A stretch of 22,497 bases of DNA. Origin: a virus. Both the position numbers and the translations under genes were made by a program. Below the pieces are notes generated by a model, which was not told where the DNA came from, searched no databases, and worked only from the letters and a program-made list of their open reading frames with translations. Shown here in pieces: positions 2,113 through 17,102 of this stretch. The stretch's first letter is position 1, and every line of letters begins with the position of its first letter. The DNA lies in the IMG/VR virus record IMGVR_UViG_3300007345_000312, positions 1 to 22,497 of that record; one strand, 5' to 3'.

Positions 2113-3306
2113 TCAGGCCGCGTTGACGCTTTCGGCGAAGGTCATGAGGTAGCGGTCGGTGATGCGCTGGCGGAGGGTGAGGTCTTCAAGCGGCGGCACG
2201 GGGGTGTAGTCGTAGTCGATGAAGCACTTGCCGGCCTTGAGGGTGTCTTTGTCGTTGGCGTCCGGGTCGAACCAGCACTGGCCGTCGATGATGTAGCCGC
2301 CGGTTTTCAGCTCGCGGAACTTGGCGTTGATGCCTTCGATGATGTCTTTCACCAGGCTGCCATGCATGGGCTTGTCGATTGCCCAGAAGTGGGCCTCGGC
2401 CATGGTGTCTGCCAGCACCTGGGCGGTGCGGGTGTAGTTCTCGAAGGCGAACAGCGGGTCGCTGCTGGTGGTGCGGTTGCCCCAGAAGCGGAAGCCGTCG
2501 CGGCGAATCAGGGTGGTGACTTCGTTGGCGTTGAGCAGGCCGGCATCGGTGGCGGGGTTTTGCAGATCCCAGTACACGTCACGCGACAGCCCGGTGACGC
2601 CGTTGACGGCCACGTTGGACAGGGTTTTGTGCCAGCCGACTTGCTGATCGATCTTGGCGCGCAGACCGAGCGCGCGGGCGACGGCTGCGGCCGGCGCGCT
2701 GGTGCTGCTGGCGGTGTCCCAGTTGATGAAGTCGGGCCAGATGAGCATGAGCTCGCGCGAGCCGAAGCCCTCACGGTAGGCGATGGCCTCGGATACGTTG
2801 TCGGCGCCCCAGGCGCTGGCGTAGGAGAACGCGCGCATTTGCTCGGCGATGGCGGCCAGCTCGGTGGTGACTGGCAGGTTGTCGAGCCCCGGCACGCCGA
2901 GGATGCGCGGGCGCACGCCGAGCTGTGCTTCTGCTGCCATGAGGGCCTTGAGGCCGGTGTATTGGCCGCCCGTGGTGACGCCACCGATGATCTTGGTGGT
3001 TTGGTCGGCTTGTTTGGCGGCGTCGTCGGCGCCTTCGCCATCGGCTACGCGAACCACGACGGTGACGGGCTTGGTCTGGTCGGCGATGGCATCCAGGCTG
3101 CGCGCCAGGGTGCCGAGTTCGCCGGCATTGCCGGAGGCCTTCAGGACGTTGGTGAGCAGTACGGGTTTGTTGAGCGGGAAGACCTCGGGGTCGGCATCGC
3201 TGGCAGTGCAGACCATGCCCACCACGGCGGTGGAGATCGTGCGGATGGGGCGCGTGCCTTCGTTGAGTTCGAGGACGCGCACGCCATGGTGATATTCGGT
3301 GGACAT
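2113..3306 (-). CDS. FI: Contractile tail sheath protein (P2 gpFI)
   Basis: A 397-residue sheath protein, almost the same length as P2 gpFI (396). Its rings surround the tube and contract on infection. The N-terminus [20 protein letters not shown] and the motif [11 protein letters not shown] are typical of P2-type sheaths, as are WADPDF-like and [20 protein letters not shown] segments near the C-terminus. The start is well supported by AGGAG before ATG. It is the first gene of the FI-FII-E-T operon, with a late-promoter element 80-100 bases upstream and a terminator behind that, so expression is probably set by the late activator alone. Confidence 0.97.
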
Positions 3307-3387: not shown

Positions 3388-3408
3388 CTGTAACGGGGCG
3401 CGGTACAG
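3388..3408 (-). promoter_or_regulatory. Late activator (Ogr/Delta-type) binding element upstream of FI
   Basis: A 21-bp imperfect palindrome, CTGTA-N11-TACAG, centred 92 bases before the FI start. The same element occurs upstream of V and between O and P, the positions of the P2 late promoters. P2 Ogr sites are known as short TGT/ACA dyads about 55 bases upstream of transcription starts; the spacing of the TGT and ACA here is 13 bases. No clear -35 hexamer is present, as expected for activator-dependent promoters. Confidence 0.72.
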
Positions 3409-3417
3409 GGCACGCAC

Positions 3418-3445
3418 AAAAAAGCCCCGCACTGGGCGGGGCTTA
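3418..3445 (-). terminator. Intrinsic terminator after the 259-residue cargo gene
   Basis: On the minus strand AAGCCCCGC, a five-base loop, then GCGGGGCTT form a perfect 9-bp stem (3445-3437 with 3431-3423), followed by a run of seven T. It begins 12 bases after the cargo stop codon. It separates the fibre/cargo operon from the FI operon. Confidence 0.92.
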
Positions 3446-3456
3446 ACTAAAGAGTT

Positions 3457-4236
3457 CTACTGGCTCAAATGGCTTAGCAGCCACGTTCCCAGAGGGGTGA
3501 TACTGAAGGCTCTAGGTGTCTCGGAAGGTGCACTTCGAGTGCTTCCAAATGTGCTCCCAGAAATATCAAATGAATCATTGAGTAGGCCATGGGCGACTAG
3601 GTCTGAGGCGCAAGATGCCATAAGCATGGTGTCCATAACTGGCATTAGGGTGCCGATATCCACGCTCTGCGGGTAGCCCTTTGTACCAATGCGGAAAGTT
3701 TTCAATCCGGACTCTGCGGTCTCCGAATCTTTGAGTTCCTGCGCTGCTCGGAGAATAAGGATGTGAGCATCCTCAAAGTGCCGGATAAGTCGAAGTGTCT
3801 GGGCCACTTCATCCCATTTAGAGGCTTGTTCATTCCAGGTACCAGCAAGAACGGTGGCGAAGCGCTTCAATTTTTCTTCACTGGGTGTTTGAAGAATGTC
3901 TTGGACCACTTGGTTCAGAGCAGGGAAAAAGTTTTCTGAACGTGGCTCCGCAAGCTTCTTGTCGATTCTGCTTTCAACCTCATAAAGCAGGGTCTCCATT
4001 CGCTTGAACGTAAAGTCGGCCGCACGTTTCGACATCAAGCGATCAACAACACCCAGTCCCATTGCATTAAGAGCGCAAACCACGAATGGCATGAGTACGT
4101 TGGTTTCATGGAGGTTACAGAAACGTTCGAACCTTGTGGGCTCTTTGGGGCGCTTGCGCGGAACAACCTGATTCATGGCTCGTAACTCTTTAAGAATCCA
4201 AGGAATAAGGCTATCCAACCCAGCGCGTTGCGTCAT
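3457..4236 (-). CDS. Uncharacterised cargo protein at the P2 fun(Z) position
   Basis: I do not recognise this 259-residue protein. It is mostly alpha-helical in appearance, with a basic N-terminal patch (VVPRKRPKEPTRFERF), a hydrophobic segment around residues 47-65 that could be one membrane helix, and a middle section with an EEKLKRFATVLAGTW then RLIRHFEDAHILILRA pattern. It ends with FSITPLGTWLLSHLSQ. That layout resembles helical proteins of defence or abortive-infection type only in a general way. Base composition is clearly more AT-rich than the flanking structural genes. It starts in an ATGA overlap with the preceding fibre-assembly gene, so translation is probably coupled, and it has its own terminator. 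It lies between the fibre-assembly gene and FI, exactly where P2 carries the exclusion gene fun(Z). A role in superinfection exclusion or defence is inference. Confidence 0.85.
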   Translation of the reverse strand: MTQRAGLDSLIPWILKELRAMNQVVPRKRPKEPTRFERFCNLHETNVLMPFVVCALNAMGLGVVDRLMSKRAADFTFKRMETLLYEVESRIDKKLAEPRSENFFPALNQVVQDILQTPSEEKLKRFATVLAGTWNEQASKWDEVAQTLRLIRHFEDAHILILRAAQELKDSETAESGLKTFRIGTKGYPQSVDIGTLMPVMDTMLMASCASDLVAHGLLNDSFDISGSTFGSTRSAPSETPRAFSITPLGTWLLSHLSQ

Positions 4237-4808
4237 GCGTTATTGCCGATACCGGCGACGGCGGCCTCGATGGCGGCGATGGTCTGGTTTGCGACGTGCT
4301 CGGCTTGTTCGACCTGGTTGGCGGCCATCAGCGCGCGGATTTGCTCCTTGGCGGCCAGGCGTGCGGTGCGCAGCCGCTCCAGGGCGTTGGTGTAGGCGGC
4401 CGCTTCGTTGAGGATGCTGTCGGCCGCTTGCTGCGCCGTGCGGCCGTTGATTGCCCAGGCGGCGACCATGGCAGGCACTTCGCCCTCGTAGCCGGCGGCG
4501 GCGAATTGCTCAGCGGCCAGGCGGGCGCGGTCGTACTCGACTGCACGCAGCGGGTCGCCGGCTACGGCAGAGCGGGCGCGGTCGGCGGCGGTGTCGATAC
4601 GGTTGCAGAGGTCTTCGACCGTTGGCACGTAGGCTGCGGGGGCGGTGATGGCTGGGGCGCCGTTGCCATCTGGGGTCAGCTGTTTGCCGGCGGCAAGGGC
4701 GTCGAGCAGTTCGATATGGCGGGCGGGTTCGATAGCGACGCCGCCGTTGTCGTCAGGGGAGAAGGCAAAGCGGCTATCTGCCGCGATCCATTTTGCATAG
4801 ATGGTCAT
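4233..4808 (-). CDS. Putative tail fibre assembly protein (P2 gpG position)
   Basis: A 191-residue protein directly after the fibre gene, with 7 bases between them. This is where P2 encodes the fibre assembly chaperone gpG. The first third (MTIYAKWIAADSRFAFSPDD, then IEPARHIELLDALAAGKQL) looks like a fibre-assembly N-terminus, in which residues that mimic fibre context are followed by a variable linker. The rest is Ala-rich helix (LAAEQFAAAGYEGEVPAMVA, AKEQIRALMAANQVEQAEHV) and is probably coiled coil. I cannot place it firmly in the gpG family by sequence, so the function rests mainly on position and size (P2 gpG is about 175 residues). Its stop overlaps the start of the downstream cargo gene. 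Confidence 0.75.
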   Translation of the reverse strand: MTIYAKWIAADSRFAFSPDDNGGVAIEPARHIELLDALAAGKQLTPDGNGAPAITAPAAYVPTVEDLCNRIDTAADRARSAVAGDPLRAVEYDRARLAAEQFAAAGYEGEVPAMVAAWAINGRTAQQAADSILNEAAAYTNALERLRTARLAAKEQIRALMAANQVEQAEHVANQTIAAIEAAVAGIGNNA

Positions 4809-4815
4809 TGTGGCC

Positions 4816-5844
4816 TCACTTGCCGAACGTAAAGAAGTCGATGGTGCCGGCTAGGTTGTTACCGCTTCCTACCCATTGGTTATCGAGGGTGAACCCGGTC
4901 AGCGTTTTGTCTCGTGGCTGGGCTACGTTGCCGTTTTCCACGCGGCTGCCGGCGTACCAGAATGTTGCGCCTAGCGAGTAAGAGGTGGTGTATGCGATAG
5001 GTAGCGTCACCGAAACGGAATGAGCCCCGCCTTCCGCCGCTAGAGAAACGCTGCCGCGTTGGAACACCCATCCGCCAAGCCAGGTCGGCAATTTGAGGGC
5101 CATGTAGGTGCTGCTGATGATGAGAGCGCCGTTGAATAGCTTCTTCGGTGTAACAGCGACATAATCCAGCGCCCCCGCGTCCACCTCTGCCTGGGTACCC
5201 ACTCGAATCACGCCGCGCAGCGTCTCTGTAGCGTTCGCAACGACAGAGCGCAGGGTCTGGAGCACGCGCAGCGGGGTCATACGTTTGACGTTGTTGACGC
5301 CGGCCTCGGCTTCTTCCTTGGTGGCTACCTCGGTCTTGTATTGCGGGTGCGGGTCGGCGCTGAGCATGTGCACGGCGATCAGGCTGTCGGCATAGGCCCG
5401 CGTAGCCAGCACCACGGACGGGTCGATCTTGAGTTGCACGGCAGCGGTGCTGGCGACGATCAGCACCATGCGCAGCACCTGGGTGCGGCCAGAGCCTTCG
5501 GCCAGCTGCGGCTTGTAGCTTGGCGGGCAGTTGGCCACAGCGACCAAGTCGCCATCGGCGTCATAGATGCCCATTTCACGAATCCACCAGCCGCCAATGT
5601 TCTCGGGGATGACCAGCTCAGCAATGATCTGGCTGGCGTTGAGCGGGTCGACCTTCAGCTCATTGAGACCGGCGCGGTACTGCTCGCGCACCAGGGCGGG
5701 TTGCAGGCGGTCGGGCACGGGCAGGTTCCCGTTGCCATCGCCCACGGCCATGTGGCTGTACTGCACTTGGGTGCCCAGCGCCTGGGCGTTGGCGAGCTTG
5801 GCCTCGCCGCGATCAGTGAGAATGGCGAAATAGGTCTGGCTCAT
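4816..5844 (-). CDS. H: Tail fibre protein (P2 gpH-like)
   Basis: A 342-residue fibre, about half the length of P2 gpH (about 669). The N-terminal 150 residues are the baseplate-attaching tail-collar domain (MSQTYFAILTDRGEAKLANA, VQYSHMAVGDGNGNLP, IPENIGGWWIREMGIYDADG). A short middle linker follows (HPQYKTEVATKEEAEAGVNN, VKRMTPLRVLQTLRSVV). The last 80 residues (LGGWVFQRGSVSLAAEG to GTIDFFTFGK) resemble the small receptor-binding tip found in gp53-like fibres. The tip binds the host surface and determines host range, so the C-terminus is expected to vary between relatives. The start overlaps the stop of I in an ATGA. Confidence 0.92.
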   Translation of the reverse strand: MSQTYFAILTDRGEAKLANAQALGTQVQYSHMAVGDGNGNLPVPDRLQPALVREQYRAGLNELKVDPLNASQIIAELVIPENIGGWWIREMGIYDADGDLVAVANCPPSYKPQLAEGSGRTQVLRMVLIVASTAAVQLKIDPSVVLATRAYADSLIAVHMLSADPHPQYKTEVATKEEAEAGVNNVKRMTPLRVLQTLRSVVANATETLRGVIRVGTQAEVDAGALDYVAVTPKKLFNGALIISSTYMALKLPTWLGGWVFQRGSVSLAAEGGAHSVSVTLPIAYTTSYSLGATFWYAGSRVENGNVAQPRDKTLTGFTLDNQWVGSGNNLAGTIDFFTFGK

Positions 5845-8537: not shown

Positions 8538-8558
8538 CTGTAGCGGGGCGAGGTACAG
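8538..8558 (-). promoter_or_regulatory. Late activator binding element upstream of V
   Basis: A 21-bp CTGTA-N11-TACAG element nearly identical to those at FI and O/P, differing at one or two inner bases. Its centre is 57 bases before the V start codon, the same distance as the O/P element to the P start. It marks the position of the P2 PV promoter and lies downstream of the cargo cassette, so V expression does not depend on transcription through the cargo. Confidence 0.72.
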
Positions 8559-8616: not shown

Positions 8617-9354
8617 CTATTTGAAAGCTGAATCCGACCCCTTCAACTCCTCTACGGGTTTTCTTTCATTTGGCTTCTTGCTCTCAGGTTTCTTGAGAAG
8701 ATCAGGCCAATGCAGATAGGGAGCCTCCTCGTCAGGGGTAAAGCAGAATGGATGTAAATTCTGCATTGCTTGGTCAGTGTCCATGTCGGGGTGCTGGGCA
8801 AGTCTTAACGTTTCATCGCCGAGCCAGCGAGAATTCTGCTTTGGTGTAACCTCTATTACTACTCCCTCCCTATTAATAGAGAACTCCGCATAATCTACGG
8901 GATAACCTTTCTCTACGTCCCAGGCGATTACCGTGGCACTATTTCCAAAAAGAGATATCTCTCCCTTTAGCAGTTTGTAGCCATGAGGAAAACCAACCCG
9001 GCACAGGCGACGGTCAGATATCACGCCGTCAATCTGGCCTCTATGGCTCGTAAGTACAAGCTGGGTGGTGGTTTCGGATAACTCCATGGAGGCCATGTCC
9101 ACATAACCTTCTGGGTAGTTGTTAAATAGGCCGTTCCAATATTCCTCCTCATAGAGCCAACCATAGAAGTCATTGGTTAAGTCAGAAAACAACCCCTTAT
9201 TATTGGCGTAAAGCACCAGCCCACCAAGCACTGCGTTAACAAAAAGCGATACTGCTGTCAGCGCGGCGAATACCTCTTTTACAGAAGTCGCCAGTGAAGT
9301 CTTGGGGAGAGGGCTGGGAGTTGCTGAGGTTTGAGTTCGCTTCCTTCTTTTCAT
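8617..9354 (-). CDS. Uncharacterised membrane-anchored cargo protein
   Basis: An unrecognised 245-residue protein. A positively charged N-terminus (MKRRKRTQTS) and a Ser/Pro linker lead to one membrane helix at about residues 28-50 (VFAALTAVSLFVNAVLGGLV). By the positive-inside rule the remaining 190 residues would face the periplasm. The middle is predicted beta-rich (TQLVLTSHRGQIDGVISDR, LLKGEISLFGNSATVIAWDV, EFSINREGVVIEVT). The last 25 residues are Lys/Glu/Pro-rich. An AAGGAG five bases before the ATG supports the start. It follows the nuclease-like gene after 36 bases on the same strand, so the two probably form one unit. It is more AT-rich than its phage neighbours. It lies at the site of P2 orf30. 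A role as the membrane partner or effector of a defence pair is possible but unproven. Confidence 0.88.
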   Translation of the reverse strand: MKRRKRTQTSATPSPLPKTSLATSVKEVFAALTAVSLFVNAVLGGLVLYANNKGLFSDLTNDFYGWLYEEEYWNGLFNNYPEGYVDMASMELSETTTQLVLTSHRGQIDGVISDRRLCRVGFPHGYKLLKGEISLFGNSATVIAWDVEKGYPVDYAEFSINREGVVIEVTPKQNSRWLGDETLRLAQHPDMDTDQAMQNLHPFCFTPDEEAPYLHWPDLLKKPESKKPNERKPVEELKGSDSAFK

Positions 9355-9390
9355 AACGGCTCCTTAAGCGGTAATGCAGGCCTTACAGGT

Positions 9391-10494
9391 TTATCGTGGA
9401 AGACTGAGCAGGAACTCATCGGTCAAGTCATAAAGGTAATCGCTTGGGTCGTTACCCGCATCCTTAGCTTTGAGCATTTCAATTACTTCATTGTCTCCAA
9501 GTATTAGTATCAGTTTTCCACTTTCTCGCATCGCGCCTTGAGCTATTTTTAAAGCACTATCGCTGGCGCCTGCGCGAGAAATTATAATGGCTACACGCCG
9601 TAGCGCTTTATCTGTTAGGTATTTTTCTGTCGTTAGAACTTGTCCTTGGTTGATTTCGTTAGAATGGTTCTTGATTTCAATAAATAAATATTGTGTGTTT
9701 AATCTTGATGAGAGAAAACCCCAGAAGGCATTGTTTGAGTTTATTCTGCATGCATAGTCGTAGCGATTTAAGTTGTCAGTTGTTTTTGTTTGCTTTTTCC
9801 ACTTATCAAGTGCAGGGCTGAATAAGTATTTCAGTATATCGAGTGAAATTTTTTCAAATTTCTGCCACTCGTCCTTGCCGCGCTTAATAGTGGCTAGTTG
9901 TGTAATTAATTTATCGCCAGGCAGTTCGGAGGGCGTAGGGTCATTGTTCGCGTTTGCGTGGTTCTCGGTCTGGATATTCTCGTTTAAAGGGTTGGGCTCA
10001 TCACCCACGCTCGGGGGTTCATGAATCTTGTACTCTGGCAGAACTGTCTCAGGTTCAAATGCAAACGATGGTGTATTTGTTGTCGCGAAGTAGTTGGGTA
10101 TCAGGTTTGGGTGTTTGGATGTAAGATTTCCCAGTTCATTTTTGTCTAGGAGTATTGTGTTATATTTTTTGGCCAGTTCGTCTCTTAGGTGAAACGGGAC
10201 CGCAACGTTGACTGCTAGTATTTTTTCTGATCTTGGGTATGGAATCGAAATTAATGAGAGCTGTCGCGCGGCTGCGAGTATTAAGTCGGCTTGAAATATT
10301 CGGGTTCTGTAGTGCTTGGCGCTAACTAAGTATCTTCTTGAGTCCTTTCTTAGGACAAGATCGGGCTGCCGGAAGGGATTTAATGCGTTAGGCGTTGTTG
10401 ATACGGGGTCTACAGTGAAATTTTCCGCTTTAAATAAGCTCTCTAGGAAGTCTACAAACTCTTGCTGGTCGATGTGGATGTTTGGCGTTGTCAC
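9391..10494 (-). CDS. Cargo protein with two restriction-endonuclease-like domains
   Basis: A 367-residue protein from a GTG start at 10494, preceded by AGGA; a TTG at 10545 would add 17 residues. An N-terminal domain (to about residue 130) has a PDLVL, then YLVSAKHYR pattern like Mrr-type PD-(D/E)XK nucleases, but the acidic residue before xK is Ser58 and so the site is degenerate. A low-complexity Pro/Asn/Glu linker follows (about 140-195). The C-terminal domain has a complete-looking site: Glu214 in a helix (EWQKFEKISLDILKYLF), Asp246 (NRYDYACRI), Glu273-x-Lys275 (LFIEIKNHS) and Gln285 (GQVLTTEKYL). Nuclease activity on DNA is inferred. The gene is markedly AT-rich, sits directly after S at the P2 orf30 position and is followed by a membrane-protein gene. 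It could be an anti-phage nuclease; no methyltransferase is nearby, so classical restriction-modification is unlikely. Confidence 0.85.
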   Translation of the reverse strand: MTTPNIHIDQQEFVDFLESLFKAENFTVDPVSTTPNALNPFRQPDLVLRKDSRRYLVSAKHYRTRIFQADLILAAARQLSLISIPYPRSEKILAVNVAVPFHLRDELAKKYNTILLDKNELGNLTSKHPNLIPNYFATTNTPSFAFEPETVLPEYKIHEPPSVGDEPNPLNENIQTENHANANNDPTPSELPGDKLITQLATIKRGKDEWQKFEKISLDILKYLFSPALDKWKKQTKTTDNLNRYDYACRINSNNAFWGFLSSRLNTQYLFIEIKNHSNEINQGQVLTTEKYLTDKALRRVAIIISRAGASDSALKIAQGAMRESGKLILILGDNEVIEMLKAKDAGNDPSDYLYDLTDEFLLSLPR

Positions 10495-10522
10495 TATGCA
10501 TTCCTGGGTTTTAGATGTTTTG

Positions 10523-10987
10523 TCAACTGCTCCTTGAGCCGACAATATAAGCGATAAGGGTAGATCGGATCAGCTCCAGATCTGTATTGGCGAAGCCGAG
10601 CAGTTCGCGCTTGGCATATTGCACCTCGGCCTGACCTCGGCCGGGGCGATCACGAAGGCCCTGTTGGTGAACTTTGGCGATGCGGGCGATACGCCCGGTG
10701 AAGGCGATTGCGATGGAATCCGCGGTGCTCTGCAGGCGCAGGTGCTTGGCCCGGCGCAGGCGAGCGAACATCTGGCGCTTGATGCGCCCTTGTTTGCTGC
10801 GCAGCGCCTGGGCCTTGCGTGGGGCGTAGGGGGTGCCGTCCGGGTTGCGCTGGGTGGCGATGCGCTGCTGTTGGTTGCGGCGCAGGTCGCGGCCGATGCG
10901 GGTGGTGAGCTTGCGCCGCTCGGCGGGGCTGAGCTTGGCCAGCAGGGCGCCTGCCCAGTCTTCGAGGGCTTCTAGATTGTCGGTCAT
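10523..10987 (-). CDS. S: Tail completion protein S
   Basis: A 154-residue gpS family protein (P2 gpS is about 150), needed to finish the tail so it can join heads. It shows the family pattern: LEDWAGALLAKLSPAERRKL, TRIGRDLRRNQQQRIATQRN, the PDGTPYAPRK motif, and FTGRIARIAKVHQQGLRDRP. Its start overlaps the R stop in an ATGA-type junction. The cargo nuclease gene begins within 30 bases of its stop. Confidence 0.95.
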   Translation of the reverse strand: MTDNLEALEDWAGALLAKLSPAERRKLTTRIGRDLRRNQQQRIATQRNPDGTPYAPRKAQALRSKQGRIKRQMFARLRRAKHLRLQSTADSIAIAFTGRIARIAKVHQQGLRDRPGRGQAEVQYAKRELLGFANTDLELIRSTLIAYIVGSRSS

Positions 10988-17081: not shown

Positions 17082-17102
17082 CTGTAGCGGGGCGCGGTAC
17101 AG
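17082..17102. promoter_or_regulatory. Late activator binding element shared by the divergent O and P operons
   Basis: A 21-bp CTGTA-N11-TACAG element in the 143-base interval between the divergent O and P start codons. It is 57 bases before P and 87 before O. It is the only copy in the interval, so one dyad may activate both directions. The inner G-rich strand points the same way relative to O as the copies at FI and V do to their genes. Confidence 0.72.

Follow-up and report, generated by a model that had tools for sequence, protein, structure and literature searches.

We found that the gene at positions 3457-4236 (minus strand) of the window, the whole stretch of 22,497 nucleotides analysed here (IMG/VR virus record IMGVR_UViG_3300007345_000312), is foreign, horizontally exchanged, under selection and dispensable, that it stands singly where two operons meet, and that it occupies an exchangeable moron slot between the tail genes G and FI of P2-like phages of Pseudomonas-type bacteria. 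From its predicted fold, its hydropathy and its relatives, we put the probability that this G-FI moron encodes an Abi-alpha-type anti-phage factor that acts as a single protein at roughly one half. Its product would probably help the infected cell to resist other viruses, a role that is supported indirectly, by the genomic neighbours of the relatives and by a transitive profile link to Abi-alpha.

The open reading frame runs for 259 codons from an ATG that overlaps the stop codon of G, and it is flanked on one side by the tail sheath gene FI (2113-3306; PF04984, PF17482 and phrog_23) and on the other by G (4233-4808), which we call tail fibre assembly-like by its position after the tail fibre gene H (4816-5844; PF12571 and a PHROGs match); the best PHROGs match of G itself is phrog_8983 (unknown function), with a weak match to phrog_8258 (tail fibre assembly). 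All four genes lie on the minus strand, and the GC content of the open reading frame is ~0.49 vs. 0.65-0.70 in the flanks and 0.66 genome-wide. An earlier note on this DNA had described an AT-rich gene distinct from fun(Z) at the place where phage P2 carries fun(Z), and both halves of that description hold: fun(Z) is annotated in the G-FI interval of the P2 reference record, and homology of the window protein to Fun(Z) was rejected (best E-value 0.75 over 27 residues). The two genes share the G-FI position and the character of a non-essential accessory gene, but Fun(Z) has 528 aa and is encoded antisense to the tail genes, after the V-operon terminator and followed by the pF activator site and FI, whereas the window gene has the sense orientation and precedes the terminator. 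We also rejected homology to the gp44 gene of Wphi in the same interval and to a 233-aa antisense gene of another P2 isolate, neither of which showed any similarity.

Sheath-based scans returned 40 genome loci and 80 viral loci, and slot contents were counted at the 50 non-duplicate loci where both G and FI could be placed, which are not a random sample because loci with a too-divergent G went unscored. The G-FI interval was empty at 29 of these loci (97-256 bp, GC 0.69), occupied at 20 (534-2237 bp, GC 0.45-0.59) and intermediate at one (321 bp). The window gene and its relatives, referred to here as family X, fill six of the 20 occupied slots (the window, L003, L050, L069, L087 and L100), Acyl_transf_3 proteins fill at least four (L047, L075, L084 and L101), and a family of small probable membrane proteins encoded on the opposite strand fills another six (L004, L005, L066, L072, L077 and L080, some of which are near-identical phages); the remaining occupants are singletons, and the content is unrelated to the window gene at 14 of the 50 loci. 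The flanks thus stay constant while the content is absent or unrelated, and the gene is not kept in all relatives as a structural gene would be (29/50 intervals are empty). These results confirm that G-FI is an exchangeable moron slot in P2-like phages of Pseudomonas-type bacteria, at a site that had already been described in enterobacterial phages under the name P2 moron position 2 (PMC3573123). Eight slot contents were compared with PADLOC and gave no match. In the antisense slot protein (~185 aa), hydrophobic segments lie at the two ends and the middle part is conserved, and its L066 copy matches nothing in Pfam or PADLOC; a further slot protein (L041:5127-5840) resembles by eye the uracil-DNA-glycosylase fold and has no Pfam match below E 0.01.

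The earlier note had spoken of an exchangeable defence slot, of which the exchange stands and the word ‘defence’ proves too narrow, because acyltransferases hold at least four of the 20 occupied slots and neaT, the moron-position-2 acyltransferase of the P2-like prophage phi-b0847 in E. coli CFT073, is a host-fitness gene (PMC3573123). Like the window gene, neaT is an AT-rich moron in this interval; it differs in belonging to the Acyl_transf_3 class and in lying on the opposite strand, and its counterparts here are the four acyltransferase slots. The same observations would suit the window gene as a lysogenic-conversion gene with a non-defence host role (a stress, surface or metabolic change), which we nevertheless regard as rather unlikely, since the window protein carries no enzyme or surface-modification domain, its relatives stand near Hachiman, AbiJ and Abi_2 genes, and a second family links it to Abi-alpha (see below). 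Another variable P2-like locus, the P2 hotspot between A and Q, is enriched in anti-phage systems (PMC9122126) but lies at a different place in the genome from G-FI.

The closest independent homologue of the window gene lies in another P2-like IMG/VR contig (L003), and the comparison of this pair indicates that the gene was exchanged separately from its flanks: its product is 92% identical vs. 65% for G and 71% for FI (and 64% for FII). At the DNA level, the two contigs share 92-98% identity from the final few bases of G across most of the gene; this value falls in the 3′ third of the gene and is ~66-68% beyond it. Over 238 codons, dN is 0.045 and dS is 0.389 (dN/dS 0.12): this is a real gene under purifying selection.

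The window protein found no similarity in Pfam, PHROGs, PADLOC or NCBIfam (in PADLOC-DB 2.0.0, no family matched at E up to 1), none in PDB by sequence and none in phages and plasmids by tblastn, and a scan of genome contigs with the single protein gave no confirmed relative. The profile of family X retrieved a second undescribed family, Y, marked by the motif IPNQRIDR; further scans of genomes and viral contigs for family Y or distant X members found none. Eight members of family X lie in P2-like contigs (identical copies not counted), two of them between tail genes outside the six slot counts (L125 and L127); the family thus occupies the tail-gene interval in eight or more such contigs, with divergence down to ~40% identity. 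Its conserved blocks are S-x-EK-x3-FA-x-LAGTW, W-x-EV-x-Q-x-LRL-x-R-x-LED-x-HI-x-IL, C-x-SDL-x3-GL-x-NDSF and a C-terminal SI-x-PLG-x-W-x-L. The six more distant members are chromosomal: scans of 399 Pseudomonas genomes, 56 Stutzerimonas genomes and 342 genomes of the order returned three, two and one of them, respectively, so that family X is rare and scattered. This patchy presence is what a neutral passenger or a selfish gene without benefit might also produce; however, the low dN/dS over 238 codons and the number and divergence of the P2-like contigs that carry the family make such an account barely credible. The Pseudomonas chromosomal homologues (35-38% identical) are stand-alone genes, which argues that the window protein is not part of the virion. 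Family Y proteins (loci L128/L159, L134, L144/L160, L150, L151 and L152) have a glycine-rich hydrophobic N-terminal segment and are scattered on chromosomes, plasmids and one Acinetobacter contig; the surroundings of the L159 gene look like an integron cassette array.

Two further claims of the earlier note, that the gene has its own terminator and a translationally coupled start, did not survive closer comparison. The intrinsic terminator hairpin is real (3422-3444, minus strand), but the stretch ahead of FI also contains a terminator in 26 of the 29 empty intervals vs. 3 of the 20 occupied ones (shuffles gave none), and we therefore take the hairpin to be the ancestral end of the upstream tail operon and not specific to the inserted gene; the P2 reference record likewise annotates the V-operon terminator in its G-FI interval. 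As for the start, the ATGA overlap with the end of G exists, but no Shine-Dalgarno sequence accompanies it in the window, which makes coupling unlikely. A Shine-Dalgarno-like AAAGAG (4183-4188, minus strand) lies 9 nt ahead of the ATG at 4173, which encodes Met22. AAGGAG or a close variant precedes the Met22 equivalent in most family X members (AAGGAG or similar stands at the matching place in L069, L087, L125, L127 and L130), and the members in L050, L125, L129, L130 and L131 start at or near the residue that matches Met22 of the window. Judging from this comparison of upstream regions and from the family alignment, the true coding sequence is probably 3457-4173 (minus strand), with a product of 238 aa.

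The strand shared with the tail operon, the ATGA overlap with G and the position ahead of the operon terminator would all be expected of a late tail or virion assembly accessory that is co-transcribed with H and G. We consider such a role very unlikely, given that the gene is missing in 29 of the 50 relatives and replaced by unrelated content in 14, that its chromosomal homologues stand alone, and that in L050 a terminator-like hairpin (by eye) separates G from the family X gene.

Between the terminator and FI lies a dyad, TGTA-N11-TACA (3389-3407, minus strand), which is a candidate activator site for the FI late promoter. A dyad of the form TGT-N13-ACA stands ~100 nt ahead of FI at 24 of the 29 empty and 19 of the 20 occupied loci, against a background of 0.4% of random 40-nt pieces, and its position before FI is that of the annotated pF activator site in P2. 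The window holds exactly three copies of TGTA-N11-TACA, the other two being at 8539-8557, immediately ahead of V, and at 17083-17101, in the O-P interval, and we read all three as candidate late-promoter activator sites. If FI has a late promoter region of its own, this would account for the tolerance of the G-FI interval to inserts, since cargo placed there could leave late expression intact.

Another AT-rich insert separates S from V in the window (8617-10545), and both inserts end just upstream of a TGTA-N11-TACA dyad. The S-V insert encodes a protein of 245 aa, in which one membrane segment is likely, and a Mrr_cat-domain protein (phrog_31260), the C-terminal part of which is PDC-M36A-like. 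Most relatives have S and V side by side; inserts occur in L015, L038, L046, L058, L089 and L109, the last of which encodes a 60% homologue of the 245-aa protein.

The genomic neighbours of the chromosomal relatives bear on the defence reading. Within 8 kb of one family X member (L153) are a PDC-S64 candidate, an AbiJ_NTD3 protein and Hachiman HamB and HamA, and another (L158) lies 42 bp behind the gene of an Abi_2 protein that matches the PD-T4-5 and AbiD models. Inspection of L154, L156 and L157 revealed no known defence neighbour. Clear defence neighbours at two of the six chromosomal X loci are suggestive rather than conclusive. The family Y gene in L160 adjoins an MmeI-type restriction enzyme. 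By eye, the L155 member adjoins apparent remnants of a P2-like portal gene, and the gene next to the L156 member (L156:8035-8733) encodes a protein of 232 aa that looks CHAT/caspase-like (HLSCHGSHNE, VSACEVG) and has no Pfam or PADLOC match.

Abi-alpha is an abortive-infection protein of an Enterococcus faecalis prophage, and infected cells that carry it lyse early (PMC6356687). Direct membership of family X in Abi_alpha was rejected, as none of the six members scanned matched this Pfam family at E up to 10 and the direct hhalign comparison of the X and Abi_alpha profiles was not significant (0.2-0.5%). The connection instead runs through family Y: hhalign gave 98% (E 1e-13) for X vs. Y, 90% (E 2e-6) for Y vs. 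Abi_alpha and 74% (E 3e-5) for X and Y combined vs. Abi_alpha, all E-values being those of single comparisons with small alignments, and the Abi_alpha alignment of the final comparison leaving out L147 (one of nine rows, with a wrong open reading frame). Controls (reversed alignments and four unrelated families, of which the DUF2513 control had only two rows) reached at most 1.3%. Because of the single-comparison E-values and the small alignments, we regard this remote, transitive link of family X to Abi-alpha as likely, not proven. Abi-alpha has been reported as similar to PDB 3H35 (PMC6356687), and the Abi_alpha alignment matches the 3H35 chain at E 0.14. Like the window protein, Abi-alpha (PF14337 Abi_alpha, formerly DUF4393; prophage 6) is the product of a single gene, of comparable size (272 aa), carried on prophages and found near other Abi genes, with a hydrophobic segment near the N-terminus and a weak co-linear alignment of the middle and C-terminal part; a phenotype, by contrast, has been established for Abi-alpha alone.

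An AlphaFold model built from eight sequences (mean pLDDT 56) places residues 151-220 and 241-259, mostly at pLDDT 64-85, in a predicted winged helix, with residues 1-77 below pLDDT 50. VIA-align matched this region to many MarR-like domains (Z ~10 over ~75 residues, rmsd ~2), and Foldseek, in a search that covers the winged-helix part only, found no match below E 0.04 in PDB and BFVD. The description of the product as a helical protein thus suits the N-terminal two thirds and not the C-terminal 110 residues, which are modelled as a winged helix. By its KD19 of 1.88, a hydrophobic stretch at residues 47-65 (259 numbering) is a borderline candidate for a membrane segment, and nearly all X, Y and Abi_alpha members have a hydrophobic segment in the equivalent relative position. 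The predicted layout is therefore a hydrophobic N-terminal segment (47-65), a helical middle and an acidic winged helix (~150-259). The resemblance of the modelled C-terminal domain to MarR-family winged helices could indicate a regulator of prophage or host transcription; we find this improbable, as the predicted recognition helix has a charge of -2 and the C-terminal 110 residues a net charge of -4, an acidic C-terminal domain recurs in all seven family X members checked, the N-terminal hydrophobic segment is conserved, and the scattered family has no fixed target operon. The acidic domain and the non-basic recognition helix make DNA binding unlikely.

If the window protein is indeed an anti-phage factor of the Abi-alpha type, the hydrophobic N-terminal segment might keep it at the membrane or admit it to the membrane, and the acidic winged helix, which lacks a basic recognition helix, might act as a sensor of a protein or ligand rather than as a reader of DNA. 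A superinfecting phage would bring the trigger, upon which the protein would disturb the membrane or the timing of lysis, and the cell would be dead or lysed before progeny mature, thereby protecting the lysogenic population; here we infer expression in the lysogen, the trigger and the killing step. The gene sits just upstream of what we read as the independent late promoter region of FI. The weakest point of the defence reading is expression in the lysogen, for which the window yielded no promoter: a search for a sigma-70 promoter of the gene gave nothing above shuffles, and since the gene lies with the late tail operon, before its terminator, it may be expressed only late. Just after G, four slot homologues (L069, L087, L100 and L125) carry TTGCAW-N17/18-TNTAAT; scanned singly, L125 is clearly above shuffles (P 0.01), and L069, L087 and L100 give P 0.20-0.29.

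We tentatively raise the broader possibility that the window protein is the founding member of a superfamily, so far undescribed, of abortive-infection proteins that are encoded by single genes, associate with the membrane and carry a winged-helix sensor; Abi-alpha would be its sole tested branch. P2-like phages of Pseudomonas and related bacteria would then exchange members of this superfamily, as well as receptor-modifying acyltransferases, at cassette sites that lie on operon boundaries just before activator-dependent late promoters. These results add P2-like phages of the Pseudomonas type to the enterobacterial ones for which P2 moron position 2 was known, and they replace a vague description of the gene at the fun site by a testable prediction, with a family that has a conserved core and a probable corrected start. 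Named relatives of the gene adjoin known defence systems, while the family itself is in no Pfam, PHROGs, NCBIfam or PADLOC entry; if the prediction is true, Abi-alpha would no longer be the only tested branch, as family X would supply another.
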